Positions 9,840 to 38,391 of a stretch of DNA of 43,521 bases are shown here, piece after piece; within the stretch, counting starts at the first letter, position 1, and every line of letters starts with the position of its first letter. This DNA comes from Rhodobacterales bacterium (GTDB lineage Bacteria; Myxococcota_A; UBA796; GCA-2862545), in assembly GCA_009936995.1 (NCBI GenBank), contig JAACDH010000177.1:1-43521 (forward strand), in the 5' to 3' direction. The notes beneath the pieces are model-generated. The model was not told the DNA's origin, searched no databases, and worked only from the letters and a program-made list of their open reading frames with translations. The position numbers and the translations under genes are program-made.

Positions 9840-12800
9840 CTATCGTCGCCGGCGTAGTCCCAAAAGGAGTAGGGCGACCATGCCCCACCCCGACGTACTG
9901 CCGATAGACGTACAGCCGCAGCTGGCCTTGGGTGGAAGCACCGCTTGGCCGCCGTTGCAGTTTTCGTCGAGCGCGCCATTGCAGTTGTTATCGATGCCGT
10001 CGCAGATCTCGGCTGCACCGGGGTTGGCCCAGCCGTCGTTGTCGTCGCAGTCGCCTTCGTTGACCGAGTAGCCGTCGCCGTCGTTGTCGAAGAAGCCCTC
10101 GTCGATGTCGCCATCGCAGTCGTCGTCGATTCCGTTCTCGAGCTCGGTCTGTTCGGGGGAGATCTGGTCGTTTGCGTCGTCACAGTCGCCGGCCGCTTCG
10201 GAGAAACCGTCGCCATCGTCGTCGGTGTAGAAGCCGTTCTCGTCGACGTCGCCATCGCAGTCGTCGTCGATGCCATTCTCGGGCACCTCTGGGGCACCGT
10301 CGTAGATGGTGTCGTTGGTGTCGTCGCAGTCGCCTTCGGCCTCGCTCATGCCGTCACCGTCGTCATCGTAGAGCTCGGTTCCCTCGTCGGTGGTGCCGTC
10401 ACAATCGTTGTCGATGCCGTCGGGAAGCTCGGGTGCGCCGGGCCACACGGTGGCGTCGTTGTCGTCGCAGTCGCCGGCGTCGACTGTGAAGCCGTCGCCG
10501 TCGCCATCAAGTACGCCATCGTCGATGACGCCATCGCAGTCGTCATCGATTCCGTTTCCAAGTACTTCGGTTACACCTGGGCTAATCGTGGCATCGGCGT
10601 CAGCGCAGTCCCCGGGGATGGCGCCGTCGGCACAGAACACCAGGTCTTCGCAGTAGCCGTCGCCGTCGTCGTCCCAACAGTCACTGCCCTCGTCCGCGGT
10701 GCCGTCGCAGTTGTTGTCGATGCCGTCGCAGATTTCGGTAAGCGCTGGAGAAGCTACGGTCAGATTGTCGTCGCAGTCGCCACCCTCTTCGGTGTAGCCG
10801 TCGCCGTCGTCGTCGTACCAGATGGTGCCTTCATCGACGATACCGTCGCAGTCTTGGTCGGTTCCGTCTGCGACTTCGGCCAGCCCGGGGGCGATGGTGT
10901 CGTTGAAGTCGTCGCAGTCGCCGTCGCAGCTAGTGAGACCGTCGGCGTCGCTGTCGAGGAGGTTGAGCAGGGCGTCGTTGTCGTCGCAGTCATCGCACTC
11001 GAGGTCGCCGTCGCCGTCGTTATCGACCTCGAAGGTGATATTGGGGCAGGGGTCGCAGCCGTCGGGTGTGCCATCGGTGGCGGTGTCGACCAGATCGCTG
11101 AACACTGGGCAGATGTCGCAGGCGTCGGGCACGGTGTCGCCGTCGAGGTCGTCGAAGTCGGAGCCGGCCGGACAGATGTCGCAGCCGTCGACCACGCCGT
11201 CACCATCGGGGTCGGGACCGTTGTCGTCGAAACCGGGGCAGATGTCGCATAGGTTGGGTACGCCATCGCCGTCGTCGTCGGTGGGGTCGGCGTTGCAGTC
11301 ATCGCAGATGTCGCCGATGCCATCGCCGTCGGTGTCGATTTGGGTGGGGTTGATGGTCAGGACGCAGTTATCGCAGTCGTCGCCAACGTTGTCGCTGTCG
11401 AAGTCACTCTGGAGTGGGTTGGCGGTGAGTAGGCAGTTGTCGCAGGCGTCGCCGAGCAGGTCGCCGTCGGCGTCGGACTGAGCGGGGTCGGAGATGTTCG
11501 GGCACACGTCGCAGAAGTCGCCGGTGCCGTCGATGTCGGTGTCGATCTGGGCCGGATCCGAGACAGTGGGGCACACGTCACAGACGTCTCCCACGAGGTC
11601 GGCGTCGGTGTCGAGCTGCGAGAGGTTGCTGTTGGAGACACAATTATCGCAGGCATCACCCACCGAGTCGGCGTCGGCGTCTGTCTGGGAGACGTTGGCG
11701 ATGCCGTCGCAGTTGTCGCACAGGTCTCCCACGGTGTCGCCGTCTGCGTCGAGCTGCGCGGAGTTGGAGACGAGGTCGCAGTTGTCACAGGCGTCGCCGA
11801 GTAGATCTCCGTCTGTGTCGAGCTGGGAGGTGTTGGCGTTGACCGGGCAGTTGTCACAGTCGTCGCCGAGTAGATCGCCGTCGGTGTCGAGCTGGGAGAC
11901 ATTGGGAATGATGTCGCAGTTATCGCAGGTGTCCCCTACCGAATCACCGTCAGCGTCGAGCTGGGCCGCGTTGGCATCGGAGAGGCAGTTGTCGCAAGCG
12001 TCGCCCACCAGGTCGGCGTCTGCGTCGGCTTGGGCGTCGTTGGCGGCGGCCGGGCAGTTGTCGCAGTCGTCGCCGAGAAGGTCGCCATCAGTGTTGATTT
12101 GGGCCAGGTTGCTAACCGTGGGACAATTGTCACAGGCGTCACCGAGGGCGTCGGCGTCGGTGTCGGTCTGGGAGGCGTTCGACACGGTGCTGCAGTTGTC
12201 GCAGTCGTCGCCGAGTAGATCGCCGTCGGTGTCGAGTTGGTCGAAATTCTGTGTGGAGGCGCAGTTATCACAGACGTCGCCCACCAGGTCGCCATCGCTG
12301 TCGAGTTGGTCAAAGTTGTCGGTGGTGGTGCAGTTGTCGCAGACGTCGCCGAGTAAGTCGCCGTCGGTGTCGGTCTGAGCGTCGTTCGCGGTGCCGGCGC
12401 AGTTGTCACAAGCGTCGCCCCACAAATCGCCGTCTACGTTGGTCTGGTCTTGGTTATCCATAGAAGGACAGTTGTCGCAGGCGTCGCCGAGGGTGTCGGT
12501 GTCGCTGTTCAGTTGGTCAAAGTTGGCCGCCGTGGTGCAGTTGTCGCAGGCGTCGCCCACCAGGTCGGTGTCGGTGTCGGTCTGGGCGTTATTGGAGTCG
12601 GAAAAGCAGTTGTCGCAGGCGTCTCCGACCATGTCGCCGTCGAAGTCCAGCTGGTCGTTGTTGGAGTCGTTCGGGCAGCTGTCGCAGGCGTCGCCCACCA
12701 GGTCGCCGTCAACATCTTCTTGGCCGGGGTTGCTGATGTCAGGGCAGTTGTCGTCGTTGTCGTAGACGTCATCTGCGTCGCCATCGCGTCGGATGTTCAG

Positions 12801-14132
12801 GTCGTCGGCGATGGCCTCGGTGATCTCGTTGTTGGTGACGTCGAGGACAAACGCGGTGTTGGACAGGATGCTCTCGTCAGCCACATCGGCGATGACTACG
12901 TCGATGATCACGGTAACGCTGTTGCCGGCGGTGACTGGGATGCCGTCGATAAGTGCGTCGGTGGCCGTAGAGTTGTTGATGCCCGTGCCGTCGTCGACGA
13001 CCGTGTAGCTGGCGGCTTCGGCGGGGATGACGTCGGAGACATCGGCAAAGCCATCTAGGGTTCCGCCGTTGGTGATTTCGATCGTGTATCGGACCGTATC
13101 ACCAGGGTTGATCACGCCGTCCGAGTTCACATCAATCTGAAGTGCGCCCTCCTTGGTCGCGATGATGTAGGGGAGCTGGTCCATGCCCACCACGTTGACC
13201 GCCAGCCAGTACTTGTCGTTGCCGCCGCCAAAGATGACGTCGATGCTGCTGTCGAGGGCGGTGAGCGCAGTGGAGATGTCGAAGGCGTCGATGTCGACCC
13301 CCACCACGCCGGTTTGGGTGGGTGTGGTGGTGTTGATGGTCCGGTTCATGGGGTTGTCGGTGGGATTATCGGGGTCGCTGAGTCGAAGATAGCCGCCGCC
13401 TGGCACGCCGGCGACGTCGACGAACTCGGTGGCCGAGGCCGCGCTGTCGCCCTCCATGGTGTAGTAGGTGAGGCTGCCAGACGGTGAAATTGCTGCGTTG
13501 AAGCCGGATAGACTGAGGTTTACCGTGTTGGCGGAGAGGGTCTGGATACCGTCGTAGAGCACCACACGGCGCGCGCCCAGGCTGGTGTCGGAGTACACCA
13601 AGAGCAGGGCCGCCGAGGCGTTGTCGGTGGAGCCGTTGTTGATGCGTCCTGTGTAGTCGTCGACCGTCCAGGTGCCGATCATCGTGGCGCCGCCGGCGGT
13701 GACTTCGGCGGTGAGATCGGTGTGACAGGACCACACGTCGTAAGAGCCCGCACCACCGTCTGCACAGTAGCAGGCGTCGGCGGTGACGGCGTTGACCGAG
13801 CCGTCGGCGTACGTGACGGTGAGGTCGGCGTCCGGCGAGGATGAGGTGCACGGATCGGGGGTGGAGGATTGGGTTTGGGTGCCGCCCCAATACAGCTGGG
13901 CGTGTACGAGGGTAGCGGAAGCGGGTACGTCGACGGCGGTTACGTCGAAGCTGGCCGGCAGCGCCAGGGTGTCGACCTTGTTGTCGCCGTCGGTGTCGGC
14001 GGCCAGGGAGGTGCCATGGAGGAAGTGCGCCAGCGAGCCGTCCCAGCTGTTGCGCTGCGCAAGGGGTTCGTCGGCTTGGGCTGTGGCGGCGAACGTCAAC
14101 AGGGTGGCACCAAGCATGCGGATTGCGAACAC
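9840..14132 (-). CDS. Giant secreted TSP3/MopE repeat protein with MYXO-CTERM-like tail
   Basis: A protein of about 1430 residues. Start: GTG 14132 is preferred (GGAGG 4 bases upstream) and gives a signal peptide ending [11 protein letters not shown] 14156 or 14117 are alternatives. Order: signal; an N-terminal beta-rich region of about 280 residues; a DUF11-like domain ([20 protein letters not shown]); 21 thrombospondin-type-3 repeats of 23 residues (pattern CDNCxxxxNxxQxDxDGDxxGDA); about five shortened copies (CDICP...); seven MopE-type repeats ([27 protein letters not shown]); and a tail with CGC, a hydrophobic stretch [10 protein letters not shown] and RRRR. The tail matches the MYXO-CTERM sorting pattern, so cleavage by a myxosortase and surface display are inferred. 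The repeats should bind many Ca2+ ions. Likely an adhesin or surface fibre; ligand unknown. Confidence 0.88.
9960..10990 (-). repeat. MopE-type Asp/Cys repeats (7 copies)
   Basis: Within the giant gene, seven imperfect units of about 35-50 codons repeat the pattern DDDGDG-(x)n-GDCDD-(x)n-P-(x)n-IDNDCDG-x-x-DEG. They lie C-terminal to the TSP3 array. On the plus strand they show as recurrent GTCGTCGCAGTCGCC-like words. Boundaries are approximate. Confidence 0.75.
11308..12756 (-). repeat. TSP3 array, 21 x 69-bp in-frame repeats
   Basis: Twenty-one consecutive units of 23 codons (69 bases) each, all with CDNC or a close variant at the start and GD near the end, with no insertions or deletions between units. 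Variation is concentrated in residues 5-12 of the unit. Five shorter degenerate copies follow to about 10990. The strict spacing points to expansion by unequal recombination with selection for the Asp and Cys positions. It is coding sequence, not a CRISPR array. Confidence 0.85.
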
Positions 14133-14217
14133 GATTCCTCCGAAGGTGTGAATCATCGGAGTGTAACAGTCGGTCAAGACATTGGTGTGGCGACTTGTGA
14201 GGAGGTAGTGTTGATGC

Positions 14218-15168
14218 ATGTCTCGTGGACGAAACACAGCGTATTTTTCGGGGGTGTTCCTGGCGCTCGGCGCGTTGTGGTGGCTGTGGCCGTCGCCCGA
14301 GGCCGTGCAAGTCGCTGATCCCAAAGTGCGCGTTGAGAAGTTCACATCTAGAATATCAGGCCCCGTGGCCTCTTCGGCAGACGCCCCCTCGGAACAGACC
14401 GTGTCTGACGACCTCGTTGCCGTTCGATGTGTAGTGAAGCTCGAACCCGGCGCAACAATCACCCACTTGGTGGCGTTTGGGGGCAGACGGGGCATTCGGT
14501 TAGACGGTCAGCTCGATGGCGACGTGCTTGCGTTCCAGGCCCGAGGCGCGTCCGGCGAGGGACTGGTGCAGTTCGACGGCTACCAACGGTCTAACTTCCA
14601 GTGGGCCACCATCGACGGTGAGGTCCGCTGTAGCCTTTCACCTCCTCGCCGATTGAGCGCCTTCGTCCAAGGGCGTGTGCACGCTGCGGTCAAAGCCATG
14701 GACGGTGCGGTGTGGGTCGAGGGCTGCGGCACCCGGACCGCGATGCTCGACTCTTCCGGTGGCTTCACCCTGGACACCGTTCCCCAGGACTGCCAGCTGC
14801 GCGCCTGTCGGCAAGCGGGTCAGCTTCGCCTTTGCGGCCCAGCGGTACCGGTGAAGCTCAGCGAAAATGGCGAAGTTCTCGTGGACCTCCAGGCCCCCGA
14901 ATATCGGCCCGCCGGCATCGGCATCGAGCTGATGCAGGTGAACTCCGGCATCCGAATCGGTCGGGTGCTGCCCAATACGCCCGGTTGGCGTGCGGGGCTG
15001 GAGCAGGGCGACGTCATCACCTCGGTAGATGGCGAGTCGGTCCAAGGCATGGATCTGGATGAGTTCATTTCGTGGGCGGTGGGCCCCGAGGGCACGGATG
15101 TTGCGATCGAAGTGATGACCGCAGAAGGCGTTGAGGAAGTGGTCATTCGGCGGGGAATCGTAAACTAG
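14218..15168 (+). CDS. Membrane-anchored PDZ-domain protein
   Basis: A 316-residue protein with an uncleaved-looking N-terminal membrane segment (about residues 9-25, [16 protein letters not shown]) and a periplasmic remainder. The last 90 residues form a PDZ domain: [41 protein letters not shown]. The middle (about 60-220) is beta-rich with three Cys pairs and is not recognised. GGAGG is 12 bases before the ATG, and an in-frame stop just upstream excludes an earlier start. It is divergent from the giant repeat gene (85 bases between starts). No protease domain is present, so it is more likely an adaptor or a type II secretion GspC-like relative; that is a guess. Its stop shares the CTAG at 15165-15168 with the stop of the opposing gene. 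Confidence 0.75.
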
Positions 15169-31531: not shown

Positions 31532-31616
31532 TCGTGTGAACGTATAGGACCACACCAGATCTGATGTGCGTGCCCCAAATCGGATAGCCTACGGCCACGC
31601 CCGCGGAGTTCCGTAC

Positions 31617-32696
31617 ATGAGTGACCTGTCTGCCGACCTCAAAGCCCAAGTTCTCGCCCGGTGGGAGCTCGCCGCCGAAGAGGCCGAGAACGCGCTCAAA
31701 CAACGTCTCTCAGTGGCTTTTTTGGGCTCTGCTTCTTCGGGCAAAGACAGCGCCATTCGCGCGCTCTTTGACTTGGACTTTGGCCAGGTCGACCCCATCC
31801 CGGGCTCTACGGACCACATCCGAATCGCCGCCCTCGATGCCGCCGAGCAAGTGCTGATTATCAACGCTCCGGGCTTCGGCGACTTGCGCGAAGACGTAGA
31901 AGCGGCCGCCCATAGGGTGCTCGAACACCTCGACATCGCGGTCTACGTGCTCAACTGTGACGGCGGCGCCACCATCGACGAGCGACGGGATCTGGACGAG
32001 ATCCGCGCCCTTGGACGCCCCACGCTGGTCTGTCTGAACAAGATTGACCTCATCCGCGAGACCCAACGCGAGGTGTTTATCGAGCGCACCCTCGAGCAGC
32101 TGGGCGTAGACCGACAGGATGCTGTCGTCACCGCCTTCGATCCGCTTCCCGCGCTGTCCGAGAAGCCCATTGGCGTCGACGAAGTGATTGGCTGGATTCA
32201 CAGTCACCTCGATGAGGGCGGCAAGGGTTTGCTCTTCGCCAAGCACCTGCGGAACCGCTCCCGGGCCTGCGATGTCATCATTCGCACCGCGGCCAAGCGC
32301 GGCGCCATGGCGGGTGCGATTCCCATCCCCGGCGCCGACGCGACAGCGGTCACGGCGATCCAGGTGAAGCTGATCAGCGACATCGCCGCCTTACACAACT
32401 ACCGCATCGACCGCGACCTGATGTTGTTCATTATCGGCGAGGCGCTGGCCGGCGGCAGCAAGGGCTTTGTGCGCTGGGCTGTCAACGCTGCAAAAGCGGC
32501 GGGATTCATCCCCGGCGGTCAAGTGGTTCACATCGCCACCAGCGCCCTTGGAGCCAGCATCGGCGCCGCCACCACCTTTGGCGTGGGCAAGGCCGCGGTC
32601 GCCTTTGTCCAGAACGGCGGCAAGCTCACCGGAGACCAGCTGCGCCTGGTGTTCAACAAAGAGGCCATCGCTTTCCGGGATGCAGCTGATTCGTGA
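31617..32696 (+). CDS. GTPase with GKD P-loop and DUF697/YcjF-like C-terminus
   Basis: A 359-residue protein; ATG 31617 has GGAG 8 bases upstream, an earlier ATG at 31566 is not supported. The G domain (about 33-215) has the P-loop GSASSGKDS (37-45), switch region GSTDH (63-67), NAPGFGD in place of DxxG (83-89), and NKID (141-144). The P-loop Ser/Thr that holds Mg2+ is Asp44 here. Residues about 240-330 form a DUF697-like module of two Gly/Ala-rich hydrophobic helices pairs (AMAGAIPIPGADATAVTAIQ, GFIPGGQVVHIATSALGA), probably membrane-associated. It overlaps the next, paralogous gene by GTGA. Both share AFDPLP-LSE-PIG. Role unknown. Confidence 0.83.
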   Translation: MSDLSADLKAQVLARWELAAEEAENALKQRLSVAFLGSASSGKDSAIRALFDLDFGQVDPIPGSTDHIRIAALDAAEQVLIINAPGFGDLREDVEAAAHRVLEHLDIAVYVLNCDGGATIDERRDLDEIRALGRPTLVCLNKIDLIRETQREVFIERTLEQLGVDRQDAVVTAFDPLPALSEKPIGVDEVIGWIHSHLDEGGKGLLFAKHLRNRSRACDVIIRTAAKRGAMAGAIPIPGADATAVTAIQVKLISDIAALHNYRIDRDLMLFIIGEALAGGSKGFVRWAVNAAKAAGFIPGGQVVHIATSALGASIGAATTFGVGKAAVAFVQNGGKLTGDQLRLVFNKEAIAFRDAADS

Positions 32697-33823
32697 GTGA
32701 CTCCCTCGAAGAGCTGCTTCGGCAGTGCCACCGAACCGAGCTGCTTCCCCTCGCAGAGGTGCTGAAGATCAAGCCCGAGGGCATGGCCTTAGACGTGTTG
32801 GCGAGGGCGCTCTCGTCTCGGGTTCGTCAGCGCGGCGCCCACATCGTGGCCAACGCCGTGGTGCGAAAGGGCGAGGGACCTCCATGGACAGCGTTGGTTC
32901 GCGGTGTTGCTCGCCGACAAAACATCTTGTTGAGCGGTGACCCCAAGCGGGCGGAGCTTGAGGTGTTGGCGTGGTGGATGGGCGAGCACTGGTCTAAAAT
33001 CGGCACGCCCCATCGCAAGCAGCTTTGGACCCTGATGGAGATGGAGGGCACGCCGCCCGAAGAGGGCAAGGCGGCGCTGGTCGAGGCCCGTCGGCAGCAT
33101 CCCAAGGACCACGAGTACCTCACCACCCGGTTGGGAATCAAGGCGCTTATGTTTGCGTTTATCCCAGGGGGAGGATGCTTAATGGCGTGGTTCTGGGGCC
33201 GTCCCCGCGATGACCTCTTGGTGCGCGCCATTCTCAAAGTGGCTCAGCTCCGTCAGGCGCTGATGCATCGGGTGACCGTGGGGGGTGTGGGCTCGCCAAG
33301 CAGTGGCAAGGACGCCGCCATCGCGGCAATATTTGGGTTTTCGCAAGGCAATATCAACCCAGTCGCCGGCAGCACCACCACCGTCGAGATCACACGATTG
33401 CCGCAGAGCACCGAGCTCTTTGTGGTGAACACGCCGGGTATGGGCGACATCGTCGAGGCGGTGACCGAGCGCGCCCGCGAGGTGCTCGATCTGATCGATG
33501 TCTACGTGTACGTGGTGAACGCCCAGGGTGGGGTTCAGGCGCGCGAGAAGGCCGACTACGACCGATGTGTGGCCAGCGGCCGCCCCGTGCTCGCCGTGGT
33601 CAACAAGATCGACACGCTGCGCCCAGCCGACCGTGAGCGTTACTTGGCCGATGCCCGAGAAAAGCTAGGCGCTAGCGAGTCTTCCTTCCTCGCCGCTGCC
33701 TTCGATCCGCTGCCCCAGCTCTCCGAGACGCCCATCGGCCTGGATGAGGTTCAAGATTGGCTGACTCAGCAACTCGTCGCGCTGGGCAAGTCGCCGTCCG
33801 AGCTACCTTGGCATCACGCTTGA
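32693..33823 (+). CDS. YaaW-like domain fused to GTPase with GKD P-loop
   Basis: A 376-residue protein starting at GTG 32693, coupled to the previous gene. Residues 5-115 resemble the YaaW (UPF0174/DUF3944) family: LLRQCHRTELLPLAEVL, ARALSSRVRQRGAHIVANAV, ELEVLAWWMGEHWSKIG. A hydrophobic stretch with Gly/Trp (ALMFAFIPGGGCLMAWFWG, 151-169) may touch the membrane. The G domain follows: GSPSSGKDA (200-208), GSTTT (226-230), NTPGMGD (246-252), NKID (304-307). As in its neighbour the P-loop carries Asp207 instead of Ser/Thr. It lacks the DUF697 tail. The two genes look like a divided pair, one carrying the YaaW-like head and one the DUF697 tail. Function unknown. Confidence 0.75.
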   Translation: MSDSLEELLRQCHRTELLPLAEVLKIKPEGMALDVLARALSSRVRQRGAHIVANAVVRKGEGPPWTALVRGVARRQNILLSGDPKRAELEVLAWWMGEHWSKIGTPHRKQLWTLMEMEGTPPEEGKAALVEARRQHPKDHEYLTTRLGIKALMFAFIPGGGCLMAWFWGRPRDDLLVRAILKVAQLRQALMHRVTVGGVGSPSSGKDAAIAAIFGFSQGNINPVAGSTTTVEITRLPQSTELFVVNTPGMGDIVEAVTERAREVLDLIDVYVYVVNAQGGVQAREKADYDRCVASGRPVLAVVNKIDTLRPADRERYLADAREKLGASESSFLAAAFDPLPQLSETPIGLDEVQDWLTQQLVALGKSPSELPWHHA

Positions 33824-33877: not shown

Positions 33878-35056
33878 ATGGTATCGCCGTCCCCTGAGCA
33901 GAAAAACAGAGAGCAAATGCGGATTCCTTCGGTGAAAAGCAAGAAAATGCCCAATGGATCGATGGCGAGACTTAGTGTTTTGGCGGGCGTCTGCCTGGCA
34001 TTAGGCACCGGTTGCGCGGCGAAGGTGGATTCATTCACGGTCAATCGCGTCATGGCCCGTGCTTCTGCTCATCCCGATTTGGGTGCCGGTTGCGCCATGG
34101 GTGAGTCCCTTGGTGGTGCTCTCGAGGCGCTCACAAAGACGTCGAACCCCTCGCGAAAAGCCTTAGTGATGTCGAATATGGCGTCGGCGCTGTGCTCCGA
34201 GATGGACGTCCGCGAGGCGCAGCTCGATGGCGCTCGTGCCCGACACAGTCTTAGCGGCACCGCCATGGTGTCCGAGGTCAAAGACGCCAAGATCCGTGAA
34301 GCGCGGGCCCTGCGCGTCACCGCCATGCGTTACTTCGAGGCCTTCAAGCTGCTCGAAGCCGAGTACGGCGAAGTGGGCGCCGAAACCTGTCCAAAAATCA
34401 AGCGTGACGACGAGATTGTATACCTAATGGGCCTGTACTCGGGTATCGCATCCATGCTGCACGACAAGGCCAGCGGCGGCACCGTGGGCGCCACCGAGGA
34501 CCTCCTCGGCAAGGTAGAGCGTGGCACGCACTGCGTCGAAGACGCGGATTGGTGGGGCGTTCCAGGCTCCTTCCGCGCCGCCGCCTGGGCCACCCTTGCC
34601 CGGGCACCCGACGGCGGCGATCCCTGGCAGCTGCTCGAAGAGGCCGCCGAAAGTGGCGAATCATCTGGTATTCGACTGGCCCGCGCCGTCCAAGTGCAGA
34701 TCGCTGCGAATGCGGGCCGCGAAGACGACGTCAGAGTCGGTGTGATCAGCTACGCCGATAGTCAAGCCAATATCGAGGTGAACCCCGCCTACGCGCTCTT
34801 TGATGAGTACGGTCGGGTGGTCGCCCAGCACGAGTCCGACCTCCTCTGGATCGCCGAAACCGGGCATCGCACGCCCGAGTTCGGAACGTTCCCAGATGAT
34901 CAGGAAGAATCTACCGGCCCCGACAGTTCAGGCGGTGCCGACCCCTTCGCCGACGACCCGTTTGGCGATGACCCCTTCGCAGAGCCCAGTGGCGACGAAG
35001 AGCCCGCTGAAGAAGCGGACTCCGAAGAAACCACCGAACAGGAGAAGACCCCATGA
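33878..35056 (+). CDS. TatT-like TRAP transporter lipoprotein with acidic DPF tail
   Basis: A 392-residue lipoprotein. AGGAG is 5 bases before ATG 33878; the lipobox LGTGC puts Cys46 as the lipid anchor after a long n-region (ATG 33962 would shorten it but lacks an RBS). The mature part is helical with Ala-rich pairs (ARALRVTAMRYFEAFKLLEA, FRAAAWATLARAP), matching the TPR-like fold of TatT, the T component of TRAP systems described in Treponema (TatT-TatP). The last 55 residues are disordered and acidic with ADPFADDPFGDDPFAEP. The gene is followed immediately by the binding protein (ATGA overlap) and the permease, whose loop carries the same motif. TatT assignment rests mainly on context and fold pattern. 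Confidence 0.65.
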   Translation: MVSPSPEQKNREQMRIPSVKSKKMPNGSMARLSVLAGVCLALGTGCAAKVDSFTVNRVMARASAHPDLGAGCAMGESLGGALEALTKTSNPSRKALVMSNMASALCSEMDVREAQLDGARARHSLSGTAMVSEVKDAKIREARALRVTAMRYFEAFKLLEAEYGEVGAETCPKIKRDDEIVYLMGLYSGIASMLHDKASGGTVGATEDLLGKVERGTHCVEDADWWGVPGSFRAAAWATLARAPDGGDPWQLLEEAAESGESSGIRLARAVQVQIAANAGREDDVRVGVISYADSQANIEVNPAYALFDEYGRVVAQHESDLLWIAETGHRTPEFGTFPDDQEESTGPDSSGGADPFADDPFGDDPFAEPSGDEEPAEEADSEETTEQEKTP

Positions 35057-36054
35057 AGCGCTTCGCAACCCTACTCGCCGCATTGGCCCTCTCCCTGGGC
35101 GTGGCACCCGTCGCCCAAGCGGGCGACGTCACCATCTGCACCTACGACCCCGCCGGTAAGGCTGGTGAGTACTACAAGATCATGGACGAATACGCGTTGG
35201 CTGCGGCCGGATGGGGCGCCAATGTCACCATCCAGGCCTACACCGACGAAGAGACCGCCGCCAAAGACTACGAGGCTGGCAAGTGCAACGGCGTGGTCGC
35301 CACCGGTGTGCGTCTACAGCGCTTCAACCGGTTCCCCAGCACCATCGAAGCCATCGGAGCGTTGCCCACCTACGACCATCTGCATCAGATGGTCGAGAGC
35401 TTCGCCAAGTACGAGTCGGTGGCCAAGTACCTCCGCTCTGGTGAGCACGAGACCGTGGGCATCCTGCCCGCTGGCGCCGTGTACATGTTCGTCCGCGACC
35501 GGAACATCAACACCGTGGCCGAGCTCGCCGGCAAGCGAATCGCCACTATGGACTACGACAAGGCCGCCCCGGGGATGGTCGACCGCGTCGGCGCCATCAT
35601 GGTGCCCGCCGATCTGGGCAGTATTGGTCCCAAGTTCAACAACGGCGACGTCGACGCCTGCTACATCTCGGCTCCCGCGTACGGCCCGTTCGAGCTCGGA
35701 CGTGGACTGGGCGAGAACGGCGGCATCATCAAGACGCCCATCGCCATGGCTACTCTTCAGGTGCTCATTCACCACGAAGACTTCCCGGCCGACTTTGGCG
35801 CTAAGAGCCGCACCTGGTTCGCCGGTCAATTCAAGGGCGCGCGCGCGCTGGTCGAGAAGGCTGAGGCCGACATCCCCAACAAGTACTGGGTAGAAGTCGA
35901 AGGCGCCGAGAGCTTCGACGACATGTTCCTGTCCGTTCGCCTCGATCTCCGTGACACGCACAAGGCGTATGACGCTAAGATGCTCAACGTCATGGCCAAG
36001 GTGCGCTGTGGCATCGACAGCAGCCGCCCCGAGTGCGTGGAGAAAAAAGAGTAG
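35053..36054 (+). CDS. TRAP transporter substrate-binding protein (DUF6091/TatP-like)
   Basis: A 333-residue periplasmic protein with a classical signal peptide (MKRFATLLAALALSLG, cleavage after VAQA). The mature protein has a DctP-like two-lobe pattern: VTICTYDPAGKAGEYYKIM, GKCNGVVATGVRLQRFNRF, TVAELAGKRIATMDYD, FNNGDVDACYISAPAYGPF. This matches the putative solute-binding family DUF6091 found with TatT-type TRAP permeases. Cys pairs occur at both ends (C near 30 and 330). AGGAG lies 8 bases before the ATG, which overlaps the TatT-like gene by four bases. It ends directly (0 bases) before the TTG start of the permease. Ligand unknown. Confidence 0.78.
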   Translation: MKRFATLLAALALSLGVAPVAQAGDVTICTYDPAGKAGEYYKIMDEYALAAAGWGANVTIQAYTDEETAAKDYEAGKCNGVVATGVRLQRFNRFPSTIEAIGALPTYDHLHQMVESFAKYESVAKYLRSGEHETVGILPAGAVYMFVRDRNINTVAELAGKRIATMDYDKAAPGMVDRVGAIMVPADLGSIGPKFNNGDVDACYISAPAYGPFELGRGLGENGGIIKTPIAMATLQVLIHHEDFPADFGAKSRTWFAGQFKGARALVEKAEADIPNKYWVEVEGAESFDDMFLSVRLDLRDTHKAYDAKMLNVMAKVRCGIDSSRPECVEKKE

Positions 36055-38391
36055 TTGGCTACAAACAACGGTGGAATCAGCGAGGGCACCACGCGAGTAG
36101 CGTCGGTCCTCATCTTCGGCATCTTGCTCCTCACTCTGGTGGTGGGCATTGCGCCAAACGTGAACACCGTTGTGGTGCAAGCGGGGGAGTCTCAGTGGCC
36201 TGGCTATGCCAAGGATCTACGGAGTGATCCCGTCGCCCCGGACTGCGTCCTAGAGGCGCTCGACGAGCAACTCAAGGCCTGTCCAGCCGGTGGCGCTGCG
36301 GCCGATCCAGGCGATGGCGGCGACCCGTTCGGTGGCGACGACCCGTTCGCGGATGACGCGCCGGCGCCGGCTCCGTCCGCCGACCCGTTTGGTGGCGACG
36401 ACCCGTTTGCGGACGCCCCCGCGGACGACGCGCCGGCGCCGACTCCGTCCGCCGACCCGTTTGGTGGCGACGACCCGTTTGCGGACGCCCCCGCGGACGA
36501 CGCGCCCGAGGTCGCCGATGGCGATGCGTTTGGCGGCGACGATCCGTTCGCGGACGACGCTGGCGGCGACGACGCCTTTGGTGGCGGCGACCCCTTCGCC
36601 GACGAGCCGGTCGCAGCCGCCCCTCAGGTCAACTGCGCCGCCCTCGCCAAGCTCCGCGACCGCTGCGATGTTCGCCACACCGAATACGCCAGCAGCGTAG
36701 AGCGCATCACCCCAGGTGTCCGCAAGTTCCGGTCCTTCGAGGGTGCCATCAGCAACGTCGCGAAGTTCCCGTGGTGGAAACAACTGCTGGTCCTTCTGGT
36801 TGGACTGGGCGCAGGTGTCACCACGCTCCATCGCGAGCATATCGCCCTTCGCACGCCCAACACACTGGTCGAGCACCGCTTCCGTCAGAGCTTGGAGATG
36901 CTCGCCGCATTCATGCTCTTCGCCGGTCAAGTGGGCGACTGGATGGTCCAACAGACGACCACCGCCGAGATCGATAACGGCTCCTTGCCGTACCTCTGGG
37001 GCGGCGTATTCCTGATGTTGGCGGGTCTGAACGCCCTGCACCTCGTCAAGCCGCCCGAGTTCAAAGAGAAGGGCAGTACACCCGCGCGCATGGTCATGGT
37101 GGTGCCGCTGTACGTGTTCATGGCGGTCTCCGTCAGCCTCTACTTCTTTGTTGTGGAACAGTACCTCTCTGGCACGGCCACCTATCTGCATAAGTTCGTG
37201 CAGATCCCCAACATCTACCTGGGAATTGGTCTGTACATCTGGGCCGGTATGCTGCTGGCCCGCACCCGTATTGCGCCCCTGATCTTCGGCGTCGCCGAGC
37301 CCTTGGCCCTGCCGCCCGCGCTGCTCGCCTGGCTGGTGGTCGTCCTCGCCGCGGTCCCCACCGCCTACTCGGGTGCGTCGGGTATCTTCGTCATCGCCAC
37401 GGGTGCCGTGGGCTTCGACCGACTGCGTAAGGCAGGTGCAAGCAAGCGTCTTGCCCTCGCCGCCACCGCTATGTCTGGTAGCCTGGGCGTCGTGCTTAGG
37501 CCGTGTCTGGTCGTTGTGCTCATCGCCATCCTCAACAATCAGGTCACCACCGACGACCTGTTCGGCTGGGGTCTGTACGTCTACGGCCTCACCGTCGTGC
37601 TCTCCTTGTTCGCCTTCTTATGGATGAACGAGAGCAAGATCACCATGGCGCCTTTGGGCCAAGCCCTGCCCAAGATGGTCCAGGGCGCGCTTCCCCTGGT
37701 GGGCTTCGTCCTTCTGGTTGTGGGCGTGCTGGCGGTCTTCGGCTACGGTCTCGGAACCTGGCTGAACGAGCACACCGCGCCGTTTGTCGTGCCGGTCACC
37801 ATGTTGGTCCTGATCATCTGGGACCGCGTGCGTCCCACCGGCGAACACGAGCCCGAGCTCGAAGCGAACGATCCCGCGGCACAACCGCTGATGAAGTCTC
37901 TGCTCAGCGCCACCCAAGAGTCCTCCCATCACGTTGGCGCCCTGCTGATGCTGATGGGCTGCTCGGTGGGCCTAGGCGGCGTGGTCGAGCGCTCTGACAT
38001 CATGAGCGTCGTGGTGCCCGAGTCCTTCGGCTCCCCGTTCCTCGCCATGACCTTCTTGGTCTTCGTGATGGTGCTGGTCGGCATGACCATGGACGCGCTC
38101 GGCGCGGTCATTCTCGTCAGCTTCACCGTGGCAAATGTGGCCTACGACAACGGCATCGACCCCATCCACTTCTGGATGATGGTCCTGGTGGCCTTCGAGC
38201 TTGGTTACCTCACGCCGCCCGTCTCGCTGAATCACTTGTTGGCTCGTCAGGTCATTGGTCCCGAGTCACACGTCGAAGAGGAAGACTTCAAGGGCACCTT
38301 CGCGCAGAAGCACGCCCACATCATCATGCCCATGTGGGTGATGGGAACGGCGCTGGTCATCGTCGCCTATGGGCCGCTGTTCTTCTATTAG
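36055..38391 (+). CDS. TRAP transporter fused small (DctQ) and large (DctM) permease with acidic periplasmic loop
   Basis: A 778-residue inner-membrane protein starting at TTG 36055, immediately after the stop of the binding-protein gene; a GGAG is about 12 bases upstream. Membrane segment 1 is residues 15-35; a long loop (36-240, predicted periplasmic) carries the DPFGGDDPFAD repeats and several Cys. From residue 240 come the remaining small-subunit helices and then the large DctM part: TAYSGASGIFVIATGAVGF, AATAMSGSLGVVLRPCLVV, GMTMDALGAVILVSFTV, and DPIHFWMMVLVAFELGYLTPP, the usual DctM landmarks. It imports an unknown substrate with Na+ or H+. A 200-residue loop in this position is not typical for TRAP permeases. 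Confidence 0.86.
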   Translation: MATNNGGISEGTTRVASVLIFGILLLTLVVGIAPNVNTVVVQAGESQWPGYAKDLRSDPVAPDCVLEALDEQLKACPAGGAAADPGDGGDPFGGDDPFADDAPAPAPSADPFGGDDPFADAPADDAPAPTPSADPFGGDDPFADAPADDAPEVADGDAFGGDDPFADDAGGDDAFGGGDPFADEPVAAAPQVNCAALAKLRDRCDVRHTEYASSVERITPGVRKFRSFEGAISNVAKFPWWKQLLVLLVGLGAGVTTLHREHIALRTPNTLVEHRFRQSLEMLAAFMLFAGQVGDWMVQQTTTAEIDNGSLPYLWGGVFLMLAGLNALHLVKPPEFKEKGSTPARMVMVVPLYVFMAVSVSLYFFVVEQYLSGTATYLHKFVQIPNIYLGIGLYIWAGMLLARTRIAPLIFGVAEPLALPPALLAWLVVVLAAVPTAYSGASGIFVIATGAVGFDRLRKAGASKRLALAATAMSGSLGVVLRPCLVVVLIAILNNQVTTDDLFGWGLYVYGLTVVLSLFAFLWMNESKITMAPLGQALPKMVQGALPLVGFVLLVVGVLAVFGYGLGTWLNEHTAPFVVPVTMLVLIIWDRVRPTGEHEPELEANDPAAQPLMKSLLSATQESSHHVGALLMLMGCSVGLGGVVERSDIMSVVVPESFGSPFLAMTFLVFVMVLVGMTMDALGAVILVSFTVANVAYDNGIDPIHFWMMVLVAFELGYLTPPVSLNHLLARQVIGPESHVEEEDFKGTFAQKHAHIIMPMWVMGTALVIVAYGPLFFY
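36355..36498 (+). repeat. Two 72-bp repeats coding for acidic DPF motif
   Basis: Two almost identical 72-base units (36355-36426 and 36427-36498) encode 24 residues each, rich in Asp/Ala/Pro and containing DPFGGDDPFAD. Degenerate units flank them (36310-36354 and 36499-36600), giving eight DPF and two DAF words in total. The near-identity indicates recent duplication. Confidence 0.85.

Follow-up and report, generated by a model that had tools for sequence, protein, structure and literature searches.

We consider a three-gene operon of the tripartite ATP-independent periplasmic (TRAP) transporter type in contig JAACDH010000177.1 of a Myxococcota_A genome (assembly GCA_009936995.1), of which a stretch of 43,521 nucleotides, here called the window, was analysed as a whole. 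Positions 33878 to 38391 of the forward strand hold the genes of a lipoprotein (T), a solute-binding protein (P) and a fused permease (M), in the order T-P-M. The P open reading frame and the T stop codon overlap by 4 bases; the P stop codon TAG is followed immediately by the TTG start codon of M. The C-terminal tail of T and the loop between the first two transmembrane helices (TM1 and TM2) of M both carry copies of one short word, DPF, and it is this pairing that concerns us. The features of the operon are the following (amino acids, aa, are numbered from the start of each protein; the basis of each assignment is in brackets):

33878 to 35056, + strand: T, lipoprotein of the TRAP-type operon, mostly helical, apparently a remote TatT relative (longest open reading frame, lipobox, HHalign)
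34937 to 34987, + strand: T tail motif ADPFADDPFGDDPFAEP, with three DPF words at 34940, 34955 and 34970 (translation)
35053 to 36054, + strand: P, TRAP-type solute-binding protein of the AdeT1_2 family, PF19582 (Pfam, Foldseek)
36055 to 38391, + strand: M, fused TRAP QM permease (DctM domain, Foldseek)
36082 to 36195, + strand: TM1 helix of M, aa 10-47 (model; N-terminus inside by homology with SiaQ)
36244 to 36282, + strand: first arm of the loop base in M, the C64-x11-C76 helix (model, conserved spacing)
36283 to 36627, + strand: TM1-TM2 loop of M, predicted disordered, about aa 76-191 (AlphaFold2)
36348 to 36506, + strand: 72-bp tandem unit within the DPF array of M, 97% matches (repeat detection in DNA)
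36634 to 36666, + strand: second arm of the loop base in M, C194-x9-C204, start of a confident helix at aa 194-217 (model, conserved spacing)

An earlier note, made from the window alone, had placed a DPF motif at the end of T; the three words are present, but the protein continues after them with an acidic stretch some 22 residues long, and the motif is not at the extreme C-terminus. Its count of eight DPF and two DAF words in the TM1-TM2 loop of M holds (36322 to 36597), and the units that it called near-identical at the DNA level are found again as the 72-bp repeat. The two tracts are strongly acidic (17 acidic and 1 basic among the 47 residues of the tail, 40 acidic and 7 basic among the 164 of the loop). 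When the tail alone is shuffled the mean is 0.07 DPF and none of 20,000 shuffles reaches three, and when the loop alone is shuffled the mean is 0.31 and none of 20,000 reaches eight. The ungapped alignment of tail and loop scores 83, against 42 +/- 7 with shuffled tails, none of 500 being as high.

While tracts of this kind might be generic acidic spacers, disordered and expanded or contracted by slippage, in which charge and flexibility alone matter, we find this quite unlikely. Copy number and linkers are indeed highly variable, the 72-bp unit arose by a recent duplication, and disorder is predicted for tail and loop alike; the hydrophobic core of the word, however, is retained while the linkers change, and single-copy versions persist in the T tails of L059 and L065 and at the C-termini of T in Gammaproteobacteria. 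Synonymous codons differ among the DPF words of the window, which suggests that the peptide is maintained. The words are, moreover, confined to the T and M genes. In the genome of the window (5.6 Mb, about 78% complete), a DNA pattern for tandem DPF words matches T and M of this operon only, and a looser pattern with 2 mismatches adds one weak, unrelated site. Of the tandem-DPF sites in 16 related genomes, 57 of 64 lie within T or M of the orthologous operon. The motif thus fails to behave as the generic acidic filler that the earlier note had named as the danger to its proposal.

The question is then whether T and M carry the words together in other operons, a check that the earlier note had proposed. 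In the 50 Myxococcota operons with both T and M readable, counting DPF and NPF words, tail and loop both carry them in 19, neither does in 31, and none is discordant; this concordance across all 50 operons also speaks against a mere spacer. Copy numbers, again of DPF and NPF only, range between 1 and 4 in T and between 2 and 14 in M and are correlated (rho 0.68, n = 16). In a tree of the permease core all DPF permeases form one clade (18 rows; Shimodaira-Hasegawa-like approximate likelihood ratio test, 100), so that, by this tree, DPF arose once, jointly in T and M. One member of the clade, L115 (CAMASI010000006.1), stands in a record titled as a 'Klebsiella pneumoniae' metagenome-assembled genome, a species name that is almost certainly wrong.

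Outside the DPF clade other words take the place of DPF, and they too are shared. M and T read DDLLDEL and DDLLDGL in L057, DDLDALLED and DDLLEGLEED in L058, and DDLFGD and DEDLFGD in L079, and L076 has DDMF in T and M alike. Within an operon, tail and loop match in their word spectra better than permuted pairs do (p = 0.0002 in Myxococcota, and 0.007 when the DPF class is left out), and a partial Mantel test of motif distances given core divergence yields r = 0.60 and 0.37, with p = 0.001. Two genomes have two systems each: G013 (L046 with DPF, L086 with DDALIGELL) and G048 (L055 and L096, one with DPF and one of the LIGELL type), and each flavour is kept in both T and M of its operon. The earlier note stated that TRAP small subunits normally lack such a loop, but a loop is present in nearly all relatives of this permease, and one relative that lost the acidic loop, L093 of G067, is also without the tail motif. 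The gammaproteobacterial T proteins that were inspected all have an acidic-hydrophobic word at the C-terminus, DLDDLL for instance, and a pair of hydrophobic residues stays embedded between acidic ones in the loop of M (DDPMAALLG, DDFDLFE).

The earlier note had also raised the binding of divalent cations, for example calcium, by the Asp-rich repeats. The many Asp residues would fit it; the Pfam and NCBIfam scans, on the other hand, gave no described calcium-binding repeat, and it is the hydrophobic residues that are retained across lineages, while the number of Asp residues and their spacing change. Since words such as DDLLDEL and DLDDLL keep acid plus hydrophobic, protein docking fits better, and we regard a cation site as very improbable.

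We turn to the place of the loop in the permease. AlphaFold2, run on a fusion of P and M, models the stretch between TM1 and TM2 as a helical hairpin in which the tract itself has a predicted local distance difference test (pLDDT) of 37-47. The hairpin bears four Cys residues with the same spacing in 12 of the 12 permeases of the DPF clade that were examined, while the length of the intervening tract differs, and disulphides may close the hairpin. In SiaQ the N-terminus is inside and the TM1-TM2 loop is periplasmic, with a predicted contact to SiaP (D36 with K143) (PMC9971032). By homology the loop of M is periplasmic, in agreement with the side that the earlier note assigned to it, and the motif array would therefore hang where P docks.

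M and P are identified by profile and by fold. M matches Pfam PF06808 (DctM) with 58.1 bits (cut-off 23.8) and NCBIfam dctM with 70.4 bits, below the stricter cut-off of 268, and has the QM fold of the solved TRAP permeases by Foldseek, in which the best match of the P-M model is 9pym (IseQM; E 1.5e-11, template-modelling score TMt 0.64), with SiaQM entries next. P matches PF19582 (AdeT1_2) with 207 bits (cut-off 27) and contains 0 DPF words. Both this match and Foldseek, in which the P models of the window and of the relative L064 resemble TRAP binding proteins, give it a DctP-like binding-protein fold, and TatP of Treponema (3u65) is among the matches of the L064 model. Searches of the PDB by sequence with T and P returned no matches or weak ones.

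The case of T is less direct. Its lipobox LGTGC, with a Cys46 that is nearly invariant among relatives, marks it as a lipoprotein, and because the lipobox sits as far in as residue 46 the true start is probably downstream of 33878, likely at the ATG at 33962. T of L064 is modelled confidently as all-helical. None of 40 T proteins (that of the window and 39 relatives) matches PF16811, the Pfam family of TatT, whereas HHalign of the T profile with a true TatT profile gives E 1e-4 over 280 columns with a probability of 57%. Because PF16811 is unmatched and the probability is merely of this size, the profiles suggest a remote TatT relative that is no member of Pfam TatT; of the 'TatT-like' label given earlier, the remote kinship may stand and the family membership does not. 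Taken together, T, P and the fused QM permease M may make up an importer like the tetratricopeptide repeat protein-associated TRAP transporter (TPAT).

Some observations on true TatT proteins and on T itself may be recorded here. This genome's own match to PF16811 is weak and lies on another contig (G000:C618:16358-16816), so a second T-type system may exist in it. In permeases read beside true PF16811 genes of the phylum no DPF loop was found. Many true TatT proteins of the phylum (L184-L203) have an acidic-aromatic word at the C-terminus (DDLF, DDYF), which may represent an earlier version of the tail motif of T. The permease of L212 (G002:C11), which neighbours a true TatT gene, carries another kind of large insert early in its sequence, made of two copies of a domain-like unit (TEGxIRVLLSGDAE...FPGYDEPLDAG...KCDSFAESC). 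In L089, the T of G174, an additional PEGA-like C-terminal domain follows the tail motif DDLLDGLL.

According to the review PMC5812351, TatT binds TatP in the TPAT system of Treponema, P must dock on QM too for substrate delivery, and hand-over of P from T to the permease is merely proposed in the published model. Combining this with the paired words, we propose the following scheme. T would be a periplasmic lipoprotein, probably of the outer membrane, and P a soluble binding protein. The disordered tail of T and the disordered TM1-TM2 loop of M would each bear copies of the same short linear docking motif, its flavour matched within the operon (DPF for this clade and words of the DDLL type for other clades), and both would be read by one receptor, most likely P. 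After loading at T, P would be retained by the tail motif; the multi-copy loop over the P-docking face of M would then catch P and increase its local concentration at the permease, so that P would be passed across the periplasm from T to M. P is proposed as the reader because, where two proteins with a common partner bear one motif, the simplest explanation is that this partner reads it, and no other known partner is shared by T and M, since no fourth gene recurs in the operons across the groups of relatives (the gammaproteobacterial loci have common but unrelated-looking neighbours, e.g., an HU-like gene). That the paired motifs are both read by P, which is held at T and then handed to M, has in our estimate a little less than an even chance of being right; the motifs, their genome-wide specificity, their co-occurrence, the predicted disorder and the homology of M and P are shown, and docking, P as the receptor, the hand-over and the location of T are inferred.

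Several results weigh against this proposal. The folds in AlphaFold2 models of a T-P fusion from L064 and of the P-M fusion from the window are confident, but the DPF tail (pLDDT 36-48) and the loop are disordered and undocked. A docking role, as suggested by the earlier note, is still the best reading. The fusions, in which stops were read as Gln as a modelling device only, were run as single chains with 111-128 mostly unpaired sequences, and with alignments so shallow and unpaired the non-docking is weak evidence against. The P proteins of the DPF clade are mostly acidic overall, and simple charge attraction to the motif is therefore not suggested. Given the single origin of the DPF clade, the concordance of 50 of 50 operons represents few independent events rather than 50. 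Inside that clade the tail-loop pairing is only weakly above random (p = 0.06 and 0.34; Mantel p = 0.03), and letter-by-letter scores on these low-complexity tracts do not cleanly separate the paralogues of G013 and G048. In Gammaproteobacteria the letter similarity of tail and loop equals the shuffled level (18.4 versus 18.4), and the claim for this group therefore has only the conserved position and the type of word behind it. A window score multiplying acid by hydrophobic content was uninformative for the gammaproteobacterial and DPF sets. As a separate matter, an apparent natural T-P fusion in L055/L110 (G048), a frame of 717 aa that includes the P signal peptide, was left unused: because the frame crosses that signal peptide, the read-through is taken as a frameshift at the T end, probably of the assembly.

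Alternatively, the T tail could dock directly on M, or the repeats could stick to one another, giving a tether between T and M without P as reader. The identical motif in the two proteins and the correlated copy numbers would suit such a tether, as would long disordered stretches capable of bridging, and T immediately precedes M in several operons. With both tracts as acidic as counted above, however, binding of like to like would be repulsive unless cations bridge them, and where two proteins bear the same motif, they are more commonly both ligands of a single receptor. We consider the tether unlikely. It is also conceivable that the words are docking tags read by another periplasmic or membrane protein encoded elsewhere, such as a chaperone, an envelope scaffold or an outer-membrane channel. 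The recurrence of the motif in T and M would agree with this when P has no obvious complementary charge and the models leave the motif undocked on it, but the flavour is operon-specific even where one genome has two systems (G013, G048), which is hard to reconcile with a shared host reader, and the lack of a recurrent fourth gene counts against it as well; we doubt this explanation.

Returning to P as the reader, one motif on two membrane-bound partners could act as a handle for passing a shuttling P, with its flavour changing jointly in the two genes and with expansion to many copies tuning the catch at the permease; we offer this generalisation as possible though rather less than probable. 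If it is true, such handle-type passing of P would amount to a principle new to envelope-spanning secondary transport. The motif common to both end stations supplies defined residues and peptides for work on the hand-over of P, and a signature by which T and M can be found and matched to each other in Myxococcota and Gammaproteobacteria, including the cultured Marinobacter, Hahella and Thalassolituus.

Two other features of the window lie outside the operon. Directly upstream of the transporter, 31566 to 33823 hold an adjacent pair of GTPase genes of 376 aa each with MMR_HSR1/GTP_EFTU matches, the first of which also matches DUF697. A 69-bp tandem array at 11439 to 12710 lies inside an open reading frame of 1551 aa (9840 to 14495, - strand), and its - strand reading resembles Asp-rich, Cys-containing repeats of the thrombospondin type-3 type.

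The DPF words of endocytic adaptors and the C-terminal tip of the single-stranded DNA-binding protein (SSB) are short linear motifs with an acidic plus Phe/Leu core. Tail and loop are like them in being short words, repeated, in disordered tails, with acid beside a bulky hydrophobic residue; the proteins and the compartment are unrelated and the resemblance is no more than that. In the searchable literature, which most subscription papers lie outside, no description of paired T/M motifs was found. BstC of the BstC/BstB sterol transport of Methylococcus is TatT-like, as T may remotely be, but the binding protein there is of another family (Phosphonate-bd) and the transporter is another one, and the passages of PMC10942540 consulted note no such motif. 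TPAT (TatT-TatP-TatQM; Tp0956 and Tp0957 of Treponema) likewise combines a lipoprotein, a binding protein and a fused QM permease in a three-gene operon, and the P model of L064 matches TatP 3u65 while the T profile is remotely TatT-like; here, in contrast, T lacks a match to Pfam TatT and P belongs to AdeT1_2, and the passages of PMC5812351 consulted describe no paired motif. The solved TRAP QM permeases (SiaQM 8thi, 7qe5 and 8y4w; IseQM 9pym) have the same fold as M (Foldseek E 1e-11 to 1e-8) at about 15% identity, and the TM1-TM2 loop of SiaQ is periplasmic beside P, as it would be in M (PMC9971032), but M differs from them in its disordered loop with putative docking words on a four-Cys hairpin. 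The importer type itself is known, and the conserved paired linear motif in a TPAT-like TRAP importer would be its new aspect.

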